Under the pieces are notes generated by a model. It was not told where the DNA came from. It worked only from the letters and a program-made list of their open reading frames with translations, and did no database searches. This document shows, in pieces, positions 16,055 through 24,955 of a DNA stretch of 64,000 nt. Position 1 is the stretch's first letter; the number at the start of each line of letters is the position of its first letter. The position numbers were made by a program, and so were the translations under genes. Source of the DNA: Acidimicrobiaceae bacterium (GTDB taxonomy: Bacteria; Actinomycetota; Acidimicrobiia; Acidimicrobiales; Poriferisodalaceae); contig JAPOPC010000034.1 in assembly GCA_026713105.1 (NCBI GenBank), positions 1 to 64,000 on the forward strand, given 5' to 3'.

Positions 16055-17077
16055 ATGACGCTGCCGGTCGCTGTCGACGCAATGGGCGGCGACGACGCCC
16101 CCGGCGTGGTCGTGGAAGGCGCGCTGGAAGCCGTGCGCGAGGGCCTCGATGTGGTCCTGGTAGGCCGGCGCGATGCCATCGTCGCGGCTGGAGGCGAATC
16201 GCTCGACATCATCGAGGCCTCAGAGGTCATCGAGATGTCCGAGGAGCCGAGCCGTGCGGTGCGGACCAAGCGCGACTCTTCGATCAGCCTCGCTGTCAAC
16301 GCTGTGCGCGACGGCGCCGCCTCGGCAATCGTCAGTGCCGGAAACACGGGGGCGGTGGCGGCAGCGGCTCTCCTGAGGCTGAGACGCCTGCCCGGAGTCG
16401 CCCGTCCGGCCATCGCGACTGCGTTTCCCGTACCCGGCGGCCGCACGGCGCGCGTCCTGCTCGACTCGGGCGCCATGGCCGACTGCAACGCCCAATGGCT
16501 GCACCAATTTGCCCGCCTTGGCTCGGCCTACAGCCGCATCCGCTTCGGCGTGGCGGCGCCGAGCGTCGGGCTGCTCTCGATCGGCGAAGAACCCGAGAAG
16601 GGCAACCTGCTCGTCAAGGAAACCCACAAGCTGCTTGCCGCAGACGACGAGATCGATTTCTTCGGCAACATCGAGGGGCGCGACGTTCTCGACGGTCCTG
16701 TCGACGTCGTGGTCACCGACGGTTTCACCGGCAATGTTCTGCTGAAGTCGCTCGAGGGCACCGCCTCGTTCTTCGTCCGCCTGATTCTCGAGCGACTCTC
16801 CGAAGGGGGACCGGCTGGTGCGGAAGCGCTTCGCCTGCTGGCGCCGCTCGCCGATGAACTGAGCCCCGACAACGTCGGGGGGGCGATGCTGCTGGGTGTG
16901 CGCGGAGTCTGCGTGATCGCGCACGGTTCGTCGAGCCCCACAGCGGTGACCAACGCCATCCGAGTCGCCCATCACATGGTGGAAGCCGACCTGCTGGGCG
17001 AGCTGGCCGCCGTCAGCCTCCCGTCCGGTGACCAACTGAGCCCTGAGCCCGAGAGGCCTGCGGGCACTATCGCATGA
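16055..17077 (+). CDS. plsX: Phosphate acyltransferase PlsX
   Basis: 340 residues, standard length. MTLPVAVDAMGGDDAP at the N-terminus, SAGNTGA near 95-101 and VTDGFTGNVLLKS near 222-234 are the family signatures. It converts acyl-ACP to acyl-phosphate for the first acylation of glycerol-3-phosphate at the membrane. Placed between rpmF and acpP; the upstream FakA-like protein would feed the same acyl-phosphate pool. Confidence 0.97.
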   Translation: MTLPVAVDAMGGDDAPGVVVEGALEAVREGLDVVLVGRRDAIVAAGGESLDIIEASEVIEMSEEPSRAVRTKRDSSISLAVNAVRDGAASAIVSAGNTGAVAAAALLRLRRLPGVARPAIATAFPVPGGRTARVLLDSGAMADCNAQWLHQFARLGSAYSRIRFGVAAPSVGLLSIGEEPEKGNLLVKETHKLLAADDEIDFFGNIEGRDVLDGPVDVVVTDGFTGNVLLKSLEGTASFFVRLILERLSEGGPAGAEALRLLAPLADELSPDNVGGAMLLGVRGVCVIAHGSSSPTAVTNAIRVAHHMVEADLLGELAAVSLPSGDQLSPEPERPAGTIA

Positions 17078-17446: not shown

Positions 17447-18229
17447 GTGGAGATTGCTGTCGCCGAACTCGCTGAACTCGACAGCTTCGCGGAGCGTGTC
17501 GGACATCGCTTCGCCGACGCCAGTCTCCTGACTGAAGCCCTCTCGCACCGAAGCTGGTGCAATGAGCACAACAGCGATGTGCCGCGTGATCGTCATGTCG
17601 CATCCAACGAACGCCTCGAATTCCTCGGTGACGCCGTGCTCGGGCTCTGCGTTTGCGAGCTCGCCGTAACCCAGTGGCCCGAACTCGGGCCGGGCGAGCT
17701 CAGTGCCGTTCGCTCGGCGGTGGTGAGCGCGGTCGCGCTGGCCGGCGCAGCACGAGACTGCGACCTGGGGTCTGCGCTTCTGCTCGGACGCGGCGAGGCA
17801 GCAACCGGAGGAGCCGACAAGGAGTCGATATTGGCCGACGCGCTCGAAGCGGTGCTCGGCGCGGTGTTCTTGGACGGCGGTCTGGGTGCGGCTCGCGATG
17901 TCATCAGCCACCTGATGGGTGAGCGCATCACCTCAGCAGCCAGCGAACCAGGTGCGCGCCAGGCCAAGAATCGGTTCCAGGAGCTGGTGACGCAACGTTT
18001 CCGCACCGAGCCCAGATACGACGTGTCGAGTTCCGGTCCCCCACACCGGCCCACATTCGTGGCCGAAGCACGCATCGACAGCGAAGTCTGGGGTCGCGGC
18101 GAAGGTTCCACCAAGCGGGCTGCGGAACAGCGGGCGGCGGAAGCTGCATGTCTACGGTTCTTGGAGGCCGAGCCGAAAGGCGAGACCGTGGCCCGATCCA
18201 TTGTTGCGGAGGAGCCCGCCCATGGCTGA
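17447..18229 (+). CDS. rnc: Ribonuclease III
   Basis: 260 residues. The catalytic signature NERLEFLGDAVL is at 54-65, and the second acidic helix (DKESILADALEAVLGA) near 125-140. The dsRNA-binding domain occupies about 170-245, with GEGSTKRAAEQRAAEAA at its end. Processes rRNA precursors and structured mRNAs. The last ~20 codons (EPKGETVARS) resemble the head of the dispersed repeat. The stop overlaps the next gene by 8 bases. Confidence 0.96.
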   Translation: MEIAVAELAELDSFAERVGHRFADASLLTEALSHRSWCNEHNSDVPRDRHVASNERLEFLGDAVLGLCVCELAVTQWPELGPGELSAVRSAVVSAVALAGAARDCDLGSALLLGRGEAATGGADKESILADALEAVLGAVFLDGGLGAARDVISHLMGERITSAASEPGARQAKNRFQELVTQRFRTEPRYDVSSSGPPHRPTFVAEARIDSEVWGRGEGSTKRAAEQRAAEAACLRFLEAEPKGETVARSIVAEEPAHG

Positions 18230-19052
18230 ACTGCCAGAGATCGAGATCGCTCGGCGCGACCTCGACAAAGAAGTCACGGGCCGCCGGGTCAAGATGGTCG
18301 ATGTCCCGGGCACCAAGAAGGCGCTTCCCGCAATGCGCTCGAAGCAGCAGTTCGCCGACCTGCTGGTGGGCAAGAAGGTCATGTCCGTGTCGCGCGACGG
18401 CACCTTGCTGCTGTTCGACCTCGGTCCCGACGAGGTCATGGTGGCGCACCTCGGCGCGACGGGCTCGCTGCGGCGGGCGACCTCTCGAACGCCGCAGATC
18501 CCTGGTACCAAGGTCGTGATCGGCTTCACCACTGGCGGTCAGCTGCGTCTGATCGATTCGGGTGCTGAAGCGACGTTGCGTGTCATTGCGAAAGCCCGTT
18601 ACCACAAGGTGTTTCCGGGTCAGGTCGATCTCGGCTTCGATCCGGTCGACATGCCGATGCCGTGGACCGACTTCGCTCTCATGCTGCGGGGCCGCTCCGA
18701 TACCGTCCGCGACCTGCTGCTGGACCAGACGTTTGTCGTGGGCCTCGGACCGATGTATTCCGACGAAGTGCTGCATGCAGCCCGTCTCGGGTATGGGCGC
18801 ATTGCCAGCGAACTGAACACCCAGGAGGTGCGCCGGCTCTACCGCGCCATCGTCGAGACGGTTCACAATTCCATCAAGTACCGGGGATCCTCCATCGGCG
18901 GCCATCTCGACATCTTCGGCAAGTCAGGTGGCTTCGATCCCTACTTCGAGGTCTTCGGTCGGGCCGGCGAGCGATGCCGCAACGGCCGAGGTGACGTCCT
19001 GACGACGGTCATCCGGGGTGTGACCCACCACTACTGCGATTATCAGGTGTAG
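18222..19052 (+). CDS. Fpg/Nei-family protein with eroded active site and zinc finger
   Basis: 276 residues in the exact position of mutM/fpg (rnc-fpg-smc). The fold is clear: N-terminal MAELPEIEIARRDL, a beta-sandwich, a helix-two-turn-helix region (about 150-230) and a C-terminal finger remnant. Key residues of formamidopyrimidine glycosylases are changed. The catalytic N-terminal Pro is Ala, the lysine of the QRRAKYLLL-type motif is Thr (SRDGTLLL), GVGNIY reads GLGPMY, the DPRRFG loop reads DSGAEAT, and only two of four zinc Cys remain (ERCRNG, HYCDYQV). The second residue Glu is kept. It probably binds DNA, but normal 8-oxoguanine excision is doubtful. ATG 18222 has GGAGGAG 7 bases upstream. 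Confidence 0.85.
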   Translation: MAELPEIEIARRDLDKEVTGRRVKMVDVPGTKKALPAMRSKQQFADLLVGKKVMSVSRDGTLLLFDLGPDEVMVAHLGATGSLRRATSRTPQIPGTKVVIGFTTGGQLRLIDSGAEATLRVIAKARYHKVFPGQVDLGFDPVDMPMPWTDFALMLRGRSDTVRDLLLDQTFVVGLGPMYSDEVLHAARLGYGRIASELNTQEVRRLYRAIVETVHNSIKYRGSSIGGHLDIFGKSGGFDPYFEVFGRAGERCRNGRGDVLTTVIRGVTHHYCDYQV

Positions 19053-19079: not shown

Positions 19080-22000
19080 GTGTTCCTCCGTTCCCTGACA
19101 CTGTCCGGTTTCAAGTCGTTTGCAGACACCACCACGCTCGCCTTCGAGCCGGGCGTCACCGTGGTGGTGGGTCCCAACGGCAGCGGCAAGTCGAACGTCG
19201 TCGACGCCATCTCATGGGTGCTCGGCGCGCAAGGTCCCCGCACGCTGCGAGGCCAGCGGATGGACGACGTCGTCTTCGCTGGAACTGACCGCCGGACGGC
19301 TCTAGGCCGCGCACTGGTCACCTTGGTCATCGACAACGAGTCGAGGACCCTGCCCACCCAGACCGCCGAGGTGGCGATCACTCGCACCTTGTTCCGCTCG
19401 GGCGAATCGGAGTACGCGCTCAACGGGACGCCCTGCCGGCTGCTCGACCTGCAAGAACTGCTGAATGATGCCGGGGTCGGGCGGCAGCAGCACATCGTCG
19501 TGGCGCAAGGCCAGATCACCCAGGTCCTCGCTGCCCGTCCCGAAGAACGGCGCGCGCTGATCGAGGAGGCGGCGGGCGTGCTGAAGTTCCGTCGCCGCAA
19601 GGAGCGTGCCGAGCGGCGGCTGGAAGGCACGGAGGCAAACGTGACGCGCCTCGTCGACCTGCAGCGCGAACTCCGCCGTCAGCTGCGGCCGCTCGAGCGG
19701 CAGGCCACCGCCGCCCGCCGCCACCGCGAGATCAGCGCAGAGCTGGCTGGGCTGCAGCTCTACAACGCGGGGCGTCAGCTAGCCGCGAGTTACCAAGCGC
19801 AAAGCGCCTCCGATGCTCGACGGGTCGATTTTGCGGCGCAACAGGACGCGGTGGCATCGTCGATTGCCGACATCGACCGGGTGATCGACGATGCGCAGTC
19901 ACAGCTTGGCGAGCTGACCGCAGAACCTGCTGATCGGCTGTCGCGAGTGGCATCGCTGTCGGAACGGGCACGCGGTCTCATCGGTCAGACCTATGAACGG
20001 ATGCGATCGGTCGAACGCGAGCGCAATACCTTGCTCGACTCCGACGTGGTGGCGACGCTGACCGATGAACATGCACGGGTGTCAGCTGAGCTGACCACCC
20101 TTGACGCAGCAGCGGTGTCGTCCGCGCCGTCGGCGGGCTTAGCCGAACAGACCCATTCAGGCGTCGGCGCCGACACCGAAGTCGATGAGGTCGCCGCAAG
20201 CGCAGCCGACCAAGACCACCGGGAGGCCGAAGCGCGCCTCGAGGCCGCCGCTGCATCGCTGTCGCAGGCCGATGAGCAGCAGCGGAACGCCGCTGAAGAG
20301 CTCCAGCATTGGATCGGAAGATTTGAGGCACTGGCCTCCGCTGTCGCCGCCGCCCGCACCGACTCCGGTGCGGCGGTGCTCGACGGCGTCGCTGGGGTGG
20401 TCGGCGCGCTCGGCGAGCTGGTGATCATCGACGACGGTTGGGAGGCGGCGGCGGAGGCTGCCGCAGATGGGTCGCTCTCGGCGGTCGTTGTGCGAGATGA
20501 CGACGCGGCGGTCGCGGCGCTGGCAGCGCTTGCCGACACCGATGCGAGCGGCTCGGTGATCTCACTCAGCAATCTGCCCACCGCCCACGATCCGGGCCGC
20601 CCGGCCGAGAGCACGTCGCCGGGCGCGATCGAGGAGTTGGTGCGGCCCCACATACAGGTCGCCCCTGACGCGCCGAAGTGGTGCCGCGACCAGCTCGGGA
20701 GGTTGCTCGACGCCGTCGTCGGTGCGGCCATCTGCGTTGCCGGCGATTGGTCCAGCGCGTATGACCGTGTACTGGCAGCGCACACGGCCGACGATGCCGT
20801 GTTCGTTACATCCAGCGGCGACCGGTTCGGACCCCACCGCTGGCGGATTGGCAGCACGGGGCCGGCGGCGGCCACGGCGGCACTCGACGTCGCACGCGCA
20901 CGCATCGACGAGCTGACGCACCACCAGCAGGCAGCGGCCGCGGCGTGGACCTCGGCGCAGCAAGCGCACCAGGCGGCCTTCGAATCATCCCGAGAGGCAC
21001 AACGCACCGCCGAGAACCTTCGACGCCGGGCGGCCACAGCAGCAGCCCAGCAGGCCGAGCGGATTCAGGCGTTCGAGGACCGAGCTGCCGCACAGGAGCA
21101 ACGCCGATCAGTGCTCAGCGAACGGCTCGGGACCATTGAGCGGCGTCTGAGGGGCCATGAGAGCTCCCGTGCGGCCGCGTCCGCCCGGCTGGAGCGGGCA
21201 GAAGCCATCGTGTCGGGGCTGGATCGTCTGGCGCTGTTGCTCTCGGAGCGCCGCCAGCGCCTCGATGCCGAAGCAAAGCGGCTGCGCTCACGCAACGAGG
21301 CCCGCATTGAGTTGGTGCGCCAGCTGACGGAGCGCCTTGATGCGCTCCGGCGCGAGCGTGACGCGGCTTTGTCGCGCCAGGAGCACTTGCGCACGGAACT
21401 CGCAGCGTTGGACGTCGCCGATGCCGAACGTCGTACCAAGCGCGACGCCCTCGTTGAGATGCTGCGAACCGAGTTCTCCGCAGACCCCGCAGCGGCACTC
21501 GCTGCACCGCCACCGCCGCTGCCCGACGGGGTCACGGCCATCGCTCACGAGCGAACGCTGCGCGCGGACCTGCATCGACTGGGGCCGGTCAACCCCCTGG
21601 CGCTCTCGGAGTACGAGGCAGCCTCAGAGCGCTTCGAGTTCGTGGCCACCCAGCTCGCGGACGTGCGCAACAGCCGCAGGGAACTGCACAAGGTGATCCG
21701 AGCCATCGACGCCGAGATCGTCGCAACGTTTGCGGCAGCATTCGAAGATGTCGCTCGGAACTTCGCCGAACTGTTCGGCACGCTGTTCCCGGGCGGCACC
21801 GGCAAGCTCTCGCTGACGGATCCGCAGGAGCTGCTGACGTCGGGGGTCGAACTCGACGTTCGACCCGCCGGCAAGCAGATCGGTCGCTTGTCATTGCTGT
21901 CCGGCGGTGAGCGCTCGCTGGTGGCGCTCGCGTACCTCTTCGCGGTGTTCCGCAGCCGGCCTTCGCCGTTCTACGTTCTCGATGAGGTGGAAGCGGCGCT

Positions 22001-22262
22001 CGACGACGTCAATCTGCAGCGTTTCTTGGACCTCGTGGCGGAATTCCGGCGGGAGTCGCAGTTGATCATCGTGAGCCATCAACGCCGCACGATGGAATCG
22101 GCCGACGTTCTGTACGGCGTGTCCATGCCGCCCGGGGGTTCCAGCGTGGTCGTGTCGGAGCGGCCCGAGCATGCAGCGGCCCTTGTCGCTGCGGATGGAC
22201 CATTGGGCTTCGACGAGTCCTCGTCGGAGCTGCTCGGAGAGCCCGCGACGACCCCTGGGTAG
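19080..22262 (+). CDS. smc: Chromosome segregation protein SMC
   Basis: 1060 residues. Walker A GPNGSGKSN at 31-39, a coiled coil, a hinge (about 440-620, with the Gly-rich GVAGVVGALGELV), a second coil, signature LSGGERS at 940-946, and Walker B FYVLDEVEAALDD near 968-980. It is the ATPase of the Smc-ScpAB complex that compacts and aligns sister chromosomes. The length is about 100 residues below the usual 1150-1200, the shortfall lying in the coiled coils. GTG start; the family N-terminus FLRSLTLSGFKSFA begins at residue 2. scpA and scpB are not in this window. Confidence 0.95.
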   Translation: MFLRSLTLSGFKSFADTTTLAFEPGVTVVVGPNGSGKSNVVDAISWVLGAQGPRTLRGQRMDDVVFAGTDRRTALGRALVTLVIDNESRTLPTQTAEVAITRTLFRSGESEYALNGTPCRLLDLQELLNDAGVGRQQHIVVAQGQITQVLAARPEERRALIEEAAGVLKFRRRKERAERRLEGTEANVTRLVDLQRELRRQLRPLERQATAARRHREISAELAGLQLYNAGRQLAASYQAQSASDARRVDFAAQQDAVASSIADIDRVIDDAQSQLGELTAEPADRLSRVASLSERARGLIGQTYERMRSVERERNTLLDSDVVATLTDEHARVSAELTTLDAAAVSSAPSAGLAEQTHSGVGADTEVDEVAASAADQDHREAEARLEAAAASLSQADEQQRNAAEELQHWIGRFEALASAVAAARTDSGAAVLDGVAGVVGALGELVIIDDGWEAAAEAAADGSLSAVVVRDDDAAVAALAALADTDASGSVISLSNLPTAHDPGRPAESTSPGAIEELVRPHIQVAPDAPKWCRDQLGRLLDAVVGAAICVAGDWSSAYDRVLAAHTADDAVFVTSSGDRFGPHRWRIGSTGPAAATAALDVARARIDELTHHQQAAAAAWTSAQQAHQAAFESSREAQRTAENLRRRAATAAAQQAERIQAFEDRAAAQEQRRSVLSERLGTIERRLRGHESSRAAASARLERAEAIVSGLDRLALLLSERRQRLDAEAKRLRSRNEARIELVRQLTERLDALRRERDAALSRQEHLRTELAALDVADAERRTKRDALVEMLRTEFSADPAAALAAPPPPLPDGVTAIAHERTLRADLHRLGPVNPLALSEYEAASERFEFVATQLADVRNSRRELHKVIRAIDAEIVATFAAAFEDVARNFAELFGTLFPGGTGKLSLTDPQELLTSGVELDVRPAGKQIGRLSLLSGGERSLVALAYLFAVFRSRPSPFYVLDEVEAALDDVNLQRFLDLVAEFRRESQLIIVSHQRRTMESADVLYGVSMPPGGSSVVVSERPEHAAALVAADGPLGFDESSSELLGEPATTPG

Positions 22263-22273
22263 CCTGCCGACCA

Positions 22274-23473
22274 GTGAGCATCGAGGTCGTACTACTTGTC
22301 ATCGGCGTCGTCGTGATGGTGCTTCTCGCATCGGTTCCCTTCGTGCAACGCACAATGCAGCGCCGCTCGGGGCCCCCATCTCGAAATGAACCCGTTGCGA
22401 TACCTCAGCCTCCGCCAAGGCCTGCGGACTACCCCGTGGCGACGCAGACCCCGCCCGATGGTGCCGCCGAACGTGCTGGGGGGCCGGCCGAGACTGGTCC
22501 TCTCAGGCCTGCAGCCACCTTTGCGTCGGGGTTGGCCTCGTCGCGTCGGACGCTGCGCGATCGCCTCGCGTCCATCCGGGGACGGCGGCCTGACGGAGCT
22601 ACGTGGGAGAGCCTGGAAGAGGCCCTGCTCGGCGCCGATGTCGGCGTTGCGACGACAATGGCCACACTGGAACGCCTGCGGAGCACCGCCGACGATCAGG
22701 ACATCGTCGATGCCGACGAGCTGGTCCACGAACTGGCTGACCAGATGCGTGCAGCCCTCGATGCTGATCGCTCGCTGCACGTGAGTGCGCCGGACCGAAA
22801 GGGGGCCACGCCGGTGTGGCTGTTCGTGGGCGTCAACGGCGTGGGCAAGACCACCACGATCGGCAAGGTGGGGGCACGGCTGTCGGCGGAAGGCCAAGTC
22901 GTGGTGATGGCCGCCGGCGACACATTCCGCGCGGCTGCGACCTCACAGCTGCAGACGTGGGCTGATCGGTGCGGTGCGGATTTGATCTCGGGCAGCGCTG
23001 GCGCCGACCCCAGCTCGGTTGTGCATGACGCCGTCAGCGCCGCGGCGGCCCGCGGTGCCGACGTGGTTCTCGCCGATACCGCCGGCAGGCTCCAGAATCG
23101 CAAGAATCTCATGGATGAGCTCGCCAAAGTTCGCCGAGTCGCCGATCGGGAGCCCGGTGCCGTCGTCGAGACGCTGCTGGTCATCGATGCGACCACTGGC
23201 CAGAATGGTCTGAGCCAGGCACGTGCCTTTGCCGAAGCCACCGACGTCACCGGTGTCGTGCTCACCAAGCTGGACGGCTCGGCGAAGGGTGGGATCGTCT
23301 TTGCCATCGAAGCCGAGCTGGGACTGCGCGTGAAGCTCGTGGGCCTTGGCGAGGGCGCCAATGATCTTGTCGACTTCGACCCCGACAGCTACGTCGACGC
23401 GTTGCTCGGCGCCGATCCGGACGCCGGGGTGCCCGCCTCCCACAGCCCAGAACAAGCCCGACCAGGGGACTGA
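22274..23473 (+). CDS. ftsY: Signal recognition particle receptor FtsY
   Basis: 399 residues. A hydrophobic segment at 4-24 anchors it directly in the membrane, unlike E. coli FtsY. A disordered Pro-rich linker (30-85) follows, then the NG domain: GVNGVGKTT from 186, DTAGRLQN near 264, TKLDG near 336. GTPase receptor for SRP-ribosome complexes. GTG start 11 bases after smc; ffh follows directly, so receptor and particle protein are probably co-transcribed. Confidence 0.96.
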   Translation: MSIEVVLLVIGVVVMVLLASVPFVQRTMQRRSGPPSRNEPVAIPQPPPRPADYPVATQTPPDGAAERAGGPAETGPLRPAATFASGLASSRRTLRDRLASIRGRRPDGATWESLEEALLGADVGVATTMATLERLRSTADDQDIVDADELVHELADQMRAALDADRSLHVSAPDRKGATPVWLFVGVNGVGKTTTIGKVGARLSAEGQVVVMAAGDTFRAAATSQLQTWADRCGADLISGSAGADPSSVVHDAVSAAAARGADVVLADTAGRLQNRKNLMDELAKVRRVADREPGAVVETLLVIDATTGQNGLSQARAFAEATDVTGVVLTKLDGSAKGGIVFAIEAELGLRVKLVGLGEGANDLVDFDPDSYVDALLGADPDAGVPASHSPEQARPGD

Positions 23474-23476
23474 GCG

Positions 23477-24955
23477 ATGTTTGACACCCTGACTGACCGC
23501 TTGTCCGGCACCCTGCGGGGCCTGCGGGGCCGCGGACGAATGCGGCCCGCCGACGTTGACGAGGCGTTGGCCGAGATCCGCCTGGCGCTGCTCGAAGCCG
23601 ATGTCAACGTCGGGGTGGTACGCCGCTTTGTAGACCGGGTCCGCGAGCGCAGCATCGGTGGCGAGGTCACGGCCAGCCTGACGCCCGGTCAGCAGGTCAC
23701 CAAGATCGTCAACGACGAGCTTGTCGAGATCCTGGGCGGAAGCCCGCTCGACTTCCAGTTCGCTCCGAGGCCGCCCACGGTGGTGATGCTGGCCGGCCTC
23801 CAGGGCTCTGGCAAGACGACTGCCGCAGCCAAGTTGGCCCAGTGGTGCAAGTCACAGGGCCGCAATCCGCTGCTGGTCGGCGCCGACCTGCAGCGACCCG
23901 CAGCCGTTGAGCAGTTGCGGACGCTCGCCCGTGGCATCGACGTCGAGGTATGGAGCGAGCCCGGAGACCCTGTGGCCTGCGCCGCGGGGGGTCTCGCCCA
24001 CGCCCGCCAGACCGGCCGCGATGTGCTCATCGTGGACACCGCGGGGCGGCTGGCGATCGACGTCGAGCTGATGGGAGAAGTGGCCCGAATCTCGGACGCG
24101 GTCGAACCCCATTACACCCTGCTCATCGTCGACTCGATGGTGGGCCAGGACGCCGTCGCGACCGCCGAGGCCTTTCACGCAACGCTCGAAGTGGACGGGA
24201 TCATCCTGACCAAGCTCGACGGCGACGCACGCGGCGGCGCGGCTCTCTCGGTTGCCGAGGTGGTCGGTCGTCCGGTGGCGTTTGCGTCAGTCGGCGAGAA
24301 GGTCGACGACTTCGAGCAGTTCCATCCCGACCGCATGGCGAGCCGGATCCTCGGCATGGGCGACGTGATGACGCTCATCGAGAAGGCGGAGGCCGTCTAC
24401 GAACAAGAAGAGGCAGAGGCGGCGGCCCAGCGACTCGCTGAGGGCACCTTCACGCTCGACGACTTCGTCGACCAGCTTCGTCAGCTTCGCAAGATGGGCA
24501 ACCTGCAGAGCATCGTGCAGATGATGCCCGGCATCTCCGACCAAGTCCGTAATGCGGACATCGACGACGACCGGATCACCACCGCAGAGGCCATCGTGCT
24601 GTCGATGACGCCAGCGGAGCGCGTGTCGCCGGAGATCATCGACGCCTCCCGCCGCGCCCGCATCGCCGCTGGCAGCGGTACCTCGTCGGCACAGGTCGGC
24701 AATCTGCTGAAGCAGTTCACCCAGATGCGCAAGATGATGGGCGGCATGATGGGCCTGGGATCGAAACGGCGGCCAGCCAGCCGCAAGGCCGGCCGCAAGC
24801 GGGGCAAGGGCCCGACCCGTCCGGCCGGCAGCTCCCGCACAGGCGGCGGGCGCACATCGTCGAAGGGCGGGCCGTCGTCGGGCAAGCTCGGCACCAAGCC
24901 CGACGGCGGAGGGATCGACTGGGAAGCGCTGGACCTGAAGCTGCCAGGCCGCTGA
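23477..24955 (+). CDS. ffh: Signal recognition particle protein Ffh
   Basis: 492 residues: N domain, G domain with GLQGSGKTT from 107, DTAGRLAID, TKLDGDARGGAA, and a Met-rich M domain (QFTQMRKMMGGMMGLG near 415-435). The C-terminus carries a ~60-residue Gly/Ser/Lys/Arg-rich tail ending DWEALDLKLPGR, longer than in E. coli. Binds signal sequences with 4.5S RNA and docks to FtsY. Confidence 0.97.
   Translation: MFDTLTDRLSGTLRGLRGRGRMRPADVDEALAEIRLALLEADVNVGVVRRFVDRVRERSIGGEVTASLTPGQQVTKIVNDELVEILGGSPLDFQFAPRPPTVVMLAGLQGSGKTTAAAKLAQWCKSQGRNPLLVGADLQRPAAVEQLRTLARGIDVEVWSEPGDPVACAAGGLAHARQTGRDVLIVDTAGRLAIDVELMGEVARISDAVEPHYTLLIVDSMVGQDAVATAEAFHATLEVDGIILTKLDGDARGGAALSVAEVVGRPVAFASVGEKVDDFEQFHPDRMASRILGMGDVMTLIEKAEAVYEQEEAEAAAQRLAEGTFTLDDFVDQLRQLRKMGNLQSIVQMMPGISDQVRNADIDDDRITTAEAIVLSMTPAERVSPEIIDASRRARIAAGSGTSSAQVGNLLKQFTQMRKMMGGMMGLGSKRRPASRKAGRKRGKGPTRPAGSSRTGGGRTSSKGGPSSGKLGTKPDGGGIDWEALDLKLPGR

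Follow-up and report, generated by a model that had tools for sequence, protein, structure and literature searches.

A recurrent, putatively non-catalytic MutM homologue encoded between rnc and smc in Acidimicrobiales

MutM (Fpg) is a textbook example of a single-purpose repair enzyme. In NEIL1 and the plant Fpg proteins, the finger hairpin is zincless, the catalytic residues are kept, and the enzymes are active. In Mycobacterium tuberculosis, Fpg1 keeps its catalytic residues, and the Fpg-family paralogue Fpg2 (Rv0944) is without the N-terminal catalytic part (PMC2734929). A literature search found no paper linking Acidimicrobi* with MutM, and none that reports a MutM pseudoenzyme next to rnc or notes that such a protein recurs; subscription journals were mostly outside its scope, so absence is unproven. 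Here, we describe a protein, designated pseudo-MutM, that is encoded within a stretch of 64,000 nucleotides (the window) from an Acidimicrobiaceae bacterium.

Locus, fold and active site of pseudo-MutM

The first-pass annotation had placed the gene exactly where mutM belongs, between rnc and smc, and the neighbours identified with curated models agreed with this placement. The features of the locus are as follows.

16,055–17,077, plus strand: plsX, upstream in the same gene run (TIGR00182 above cut-off)
17,447–18,229, plus strand: rnc, ribonuclease III (TIGR02191 above cut-off)
18,222–19,052, plus strand: pseudo-MutM, 276 amino acids, Fpg/MutM fold without the catalytic residues, the lesion-recognition residues and half of the zinc residues
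18,222–18,557, plus strand: N-terminal catalytic-type domain (PF01149, residues 1–112), with A2, T61 (= K60) and A79 (= M77)
18,630–18,896, plus strand: H2TH domain (PF06831, residues 137–225), with P177 (= N174); W148, R193, R204, R208 and E212 retained
18,900–19,049, plus strand: hairpin that was once a zinc finger, with C252 and C272 (numbering of the protein itself) left of its four Cys
19,080–22,262, plus strand: smc, chromosome segregation protein (TIGR02168 above cut-off)
22,274–24,955, plus strand: ftsY and ffh, downstream in the same gene run (TIGR00064 and TIGR00959 above cut-off)

The open reading frame has an ATG start and a TAG stop, overlaps rnc by 8 nt (18,222–18,229), and ends 27 bp from the start of smc; the overlap is identical across the genus of the source organism (the window genus). 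In most of the other genera of its family (f1), there is a gap at the rnc/pseudo-mutM junction.

The protein matched both domains of the Fpg/Nei superfamily above their curated cut-offs (PF01149, 70.4 bits, cut-off 25.5; PF06831, 57.5 bits, cut-off 34.7), yet it was missed by both MutM equivalog models (NF002211, 167.2 < 212 bits; TIGR00577, 163.6 < 203.3 bits). Therefore, annotation by family membership alone would be misleading in this case. A structure model predicted with AF2 from an alignment of 56 relatives (pLDDT, 91.3; pTM, 0.88) contained the whole MutM fold, in line with the earlier claim that the fold is kept. Its best match in the PDB was 1r2y_A (TM 0.89, Z 32.7, 2.3 Å over 272 residues; Foldseek and VIA-align), and the structural match spanned residues 2–276. 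In other words, the predicted fold is complete and the active site is incomplete: pseudo-MutM belongs to the Fpg/Nei superfamily by its fold, but by the residues tested it is not a MutM glycosylase.

Residues were numbered and compared by alignment to the MutM of G. stearothermophilus. All of the substitutions first listed were recovered in this alignment, namely, Pro2 to Ala, Lys60 (Lys57 in E. coli) to Thr, and Asn174 to Pro (within GLGPMY), together with the replacement of the Arg112-Lys-Phe114 loop by DSGAEATL and the disappearance of two of the four zinc-binding Cys (Cys252 to Gly at residue 255, and Cys272 to Gln at residue 275), Cys249 and Cys269 being kept. The alignment added Met77, His93, Tyr225 and Arg264 to the residues lost, and the PF06827 zinc finger was not found in the window protein by a Pfam search. 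The positions equivalent to R112 (G114) and F114 (E116) lie slightly past the end of the PF01149 domain. The window protein retains Glu3 and Glu6, the former being kept across f1, and still has the equivalents of H74 and Q166.

These changes are fixed in the window genus: its 11 genomes, whose proteins share 80–91% identity with the window protein, all have Ala2 in place of the Pro2 nucleophile; the position of Lys60 is occupied by Thr or Ser, and those of Met77, Arg112, Phe114, Asn174 and Arg264 by A or E, G, E, P, and V or M, respectively. Two of the four zinc-finger Cys are present in this genus and one in the remainder of f1. Across f1, the gene was found in 39 of 39 genomes (10 genera), although it was split over contig ends in two, and K60, N174, M77, R112 and F114 were absent from 28 of the 28 copies examined (10 genera), with P2 left in only one. 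The reading frame was open in every full-length f1 copy, including those of the 11 genomes of the window genus. Therefore, the changes cannot be put down to a sequencing error or to decay in one strain. A pseudogene was ruled out in the same way and by the median dN/dS within the window genus, which was 0.14 for pseudo-mutM, compared with 0.18 for rnc, 0.165 for smc and approximately 0.12 for the second MutM described below (three pairs only). When the gene was divided into parts, dN/dS was 0.22 for the N-terminal part (residues 1–135), approximately 0.08 for the H2TH domain and 0.05 for the former zinc hairpin, which is thus the most constrained part of pseudo-MutM within the genus. The earlier reading of a maintained protein with changed function, and not a decaying gene, is upheld by the family-wide fixation, the dN/dS of 0.14 and a second canonical MutM in the genome. 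The evidence named at the outset as counting against that reading, namely, relatives whose copy at this locus has Pro2, Lys57 and all four Cys, was seen only in other families; the f1 copies examined are all degenerate, and the loss is recurrent. From the isolate names, we read the window genus as sponge associated.

A second MutM and the recurrence of the degenerate state

The source assembly (3.96 Mb, 94% complete) contains three Fpg/Nei genes: pseudo-mutM, MutM-B on contig C44 (G000:C44) and a Nei-like gene on contig C1. A search for a second, canonical mutM had been proposed as a check, and MutM-B answers to that description: all key residues are present, and it passes both equivalog cut-offs (NF002211, 251 bits). 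A genome without any mutM left is thereby ruled out; 8-oxoG repair therefore has another owner, and in these organisms it is better assigned to MutM-B. There were also two below-cut-off matches to the MutY model in the source genome, corresponding to MutY-like and Nth-like candidates. The Nei-like protein (L003; contig C1, 931–1866, minus strand) has GLGRRMANE where GxGNxYxDE is expected, and its tail, TGGRVLADNTTSKFLR, is shared by relatives from f6, f59 and f18 genomes.

Across the order, the copies encoded between rnc and smc either had all eight key residues or had lost at least five of them, with a single exception (G029 of f6), in which P2, E3 and K60 are kept, M77, F114, N174 and R264 are lost, and no MutM-B match was found. 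The order sample consisted of the genomes whose rnc-smc locus was read, and a MutM-B match was accepted at a threshold of E 1e−40. Among the genomes with an intact rnc-linked copy, none had MutM-B and 46 were without it, whereas among those with a degenerate copy, 57 had MutM-B and 6 did not (Fisher p = 1.5e−24, with shared ancestry ignored). Thus, a second canonical MutM accompanies the degenerate copy in nearly all of the sampled genomes of the order. All MutM-B copies examined from degenerate genomes were canonical, two whose starts had been called too short being intact at all covered positions. A perfect correlation is ruled out by the six degenerate genomes without a match at E 1e−40, which comprise three from f59, two small f55 genomes from a single genus, and G055 of f18. 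The f59 genomes among them have other Fpg-type genes, and only Nei-type genes were found in G092, G164 and G055. The rnc-linked copies of G219 and G258 are intact. Two further observations concern individual loci. An odd Fpg-type protein of f59 (L239, G136:C210; L252, G096:C28) has the sequence PEAAEVAVA, carries SGIGSY or AGIGSY with Ser at the position of Asn174, and has Ala in the usual LPEVE motif. An intact-type rnc-linked mutM (L052; G035:C1:791999–792818) is divided between two frames near codon 60, reflecting a frameshift or an assembly error.

The degenerate state is not an oddity of one genus; it occurred in approximately 20 families of the order, in two families of another order of the same class (f71 and f64), and in four further families of the phylum. 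In f71 and f64, degenerate rnc copies are found together with a second MutM, which is a MutM-B orthologue in f71 and of a different type in f64. The rnc copy is degenerate in four f71 genomes (G290, G294, G297 and G321), each with MutM-B, and is intact in a fifth (G343), which has no MutM-B-type copy among its Fpg matches. In f83, f95 and f120, a degenerate rnc-linked MutM occurs with a canonical MutM-B-like copy that shares 45–48% identity with a MutM-B from the order; in f91, for which only the locus was examined, the rnc-linked copy is degenerate, and in f88, f89, f92 and f118 it is intact. As separate observations, the second MutM of f64 (L308, L309, L314 and L315) is 30–38% identical to MutM-B and lacks Arg264, with Thr at position 2 as well in G295, and a second Fpg-like protein in f99 (L361; G374:C61:10730–11548), with neither rnc nor smc found beside it, carries E3D, H74N, R112N and N174S and is thus a further paralogue with partial alterations.

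Within the order, the degenerate copies formed one clade (99/97) nested among the intact ones in a gene tree built without the catalytic columns, and MutM-B formed a separate clade (100/100). The gene tree also drew the f71 and f64 copies towards the other degenerate ones. This points to a single origin, but a tree built from the flanking genes, rnc and smc, conflicts with it: G343 was joined (100) to the three degenerate f71 genomes included in that tree, and five changes of state were required, four of them forced. A separate origin in f71 was not rejected by the AU test (p = 0.24). Because degenerate copies from the order come together with those from f71 and f64 in the gene tree, it is uncertain how often the loss arose independently; we read the pattern as repeated loss and leave the exact number open.

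Lost and retained columns and the proposed role

The same canonical-invariant columns were lost in parallel in the order, f71 and f64 (pairwise Fisher p = 7e−9, 7e−8 and 1e−6). The shared lost columns include K60, H74, M77, H93, R112, F114, Q166, N174 and Y225, which in Fpg structures are catalytic, phosphate-gripping, intercalating and lesion-loop residues. Another set of columns was kept in every degenerate group (mean ≥0.98) and was rare or absent in MutM-B, namely, W148, R193, R204, R208, F102, G106 and D140; E212 was mostly kept in the degenerate groups and similarly rare or absent in MutM-B, and two f83 copies examined later have His at position 193. In the structure model, R204, R208 and E212 are spaced i, i+4 and i+8 on a predicted helix (200–219). 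Among all rnc copies read, 106 were scored as degenerate (the f6 intermediate counted with them); all four residues of the signature W148, R204, R208 and E212 (WRRE) were present in 93 of these, and never fewer than two. Of the 18 intact rnc copies in which the signature was incomplete, 16 had no more than one of the four residues. The intact rnc copies of f105, f100, f109, f90 and f112 lack the four residues, the feature is missing from the ordinary MutM of actinomycetes, and it was rare in MutM-B. It was derived from the same alignment that defined retention, and the forward test consists of five later genomes only; all five degenerate copies added after the signature was noticed have W148, R204, R208 and E212.

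Given this pattern, pseudo-MutM is likely to represent a recurrent MutM pseudoenzyme that has been kept for a role independent of catalysis, probably a protein interaction. In this branch of Actinomycetota, the MutM encoded next to rnc would once have had two jobs, the excision of 8-oxoG/FapyG and a role that does not depend on the active site. The presence of a second MutM, in most cases MutM-B, would have relieved the selection acting on catalysis. The residues of the pocket, those that fill the void and those that grip phosphates have gone, as has the zinc site in some lineages, leaving a protein that, judging from its residues, is probably catalytically dead. The fold, the gene position and the C-terminal feature (W148, R204/R208/E212 and the C-terminal hairpin) have been kept by purifying selection. 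We infer that the function under selection resides in this feature, the simplest mechanism being the binding of a partner; the feature may form an interaction surface, whose partner would most likely be a protein, possibly one from its own gene run. RNase III, SMC and MutM-B are candidate partners by neighbourhood or co-occurrence only, and WRRE could instead be an internal salt-bridge network. The chances appear to us evenly balanced that the rnc-linked MutM is bifunctional in this specific sense, with a role of W148/R204/R208/E212, perhaps with RNase III or SMC as the partner, that outlasts repeated, parallel loss of the glycosylase function where repair has passed to another MutM.

A DNA-binding or damage-sensing protein had been suggested in the first-pass annotation. 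A noncatalytic protein whose Fpg groove is preserved and which flags lesions or AP sites for repair by MutM-B or by other proteins would be consistent with the predicted full fold and with the window genus, in which the protein is basic (net charge +3, pI 8.8) and E6, R58, Y179 and R247 are conserved. We nevertheless consider it unlikely. The backbone contacts K60, H74, N174 and R264, the M77/R112/F114 triad and Y225 of the lesion loop are among the least retained columns, and most of these were lost in parallel lineages, so the phosphate-gripping, void-filling and lesion-binding residues are the very ones that have gone. Intact copies have a median net charge of +7; the corresponding medians for degenerate copies are 0 (order), −5 (f83) and −7 (f120). 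The negative charge in the last two families also argues against an RNA- or ribosome-associated H2TH protein acting beside RNase III, which we regard as less probable still, even though the 8-nt overlap with rnc throughout the genus, the relationship of H2TH to the S13 and NFACT/RqcH folds (weak Pfam/NCBIfam hits only) and the Arg-rich retained helix (R204, R205 and R208) are in its favour. The neighbourhood is weak evidence for a role in RNA metabolism, because the gene position was inherited from an ordinary MutM.

New chemistry at the active site, proposed at the outset for a glycosylase and considered here for a lyase as well, is very improbable. The fold and cavity remain, and most copies still have Glu3 and Glu6, but Glu3 is lost in f36, f17, f53 (G090), f58 and f120, and the residues at the catalytic positions drift (A, L, R, I, F, N, T and others at residue 2; T, S, M, L, R, K, P and V at position 60). 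No new invariant constellation and no new conserved candidate residues were found in the active-site pocket, P145 and H215 being the only newly conserved residues. A decaying relic held only by gene order or operon polarity would explain the freely varying catalytic positions and the presence of a second MutM, but it is scarcely credible for a gene with open frames in all full-length f1 copies, a dN/dS of 0.14, a strongly constrained C-terminal part and retention in whole families of several orders.

Comparison with known systems

The recurrent turning of MutM into a conserved, putative non-enzyme at its ancestral locus would constitute natural genetic evidence for a role of MutM besides excision. 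The two functions would then be separated in living lineages, making the hidden one directly testable.

MutM-B belongs to the same family as pseudo-MutM. In f71 and in most of the order's sampled families, orthologues of MutM-B occur alongside degenerate rnc copies, and relatives of it do so in f83, f95 and f120. MutM-B differs from pseudo-MutM in being fully canonical, in lacking the WRRE feature and in its separate clade. With G. stearothermophilus MutM (1r2y), pseudo-MutM shares the whole predicted fold, the domain order, the length and approximately 30% identity, and it occupies the same rnc-smc position as the intact actinobacterial mutM, but it is without Pro2, Lys60, the intercalating triad, Asn174, Arg264 and a complete zinc site. 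The zincless finger hairpin of NEIL1 and plant Fpg is a point of likeness, although those proteins are catalytic and active. The nearest documented case that we found is Fpg2 of M. tuberculosis, which is truncated, whereas pseudo-MutM is full length.
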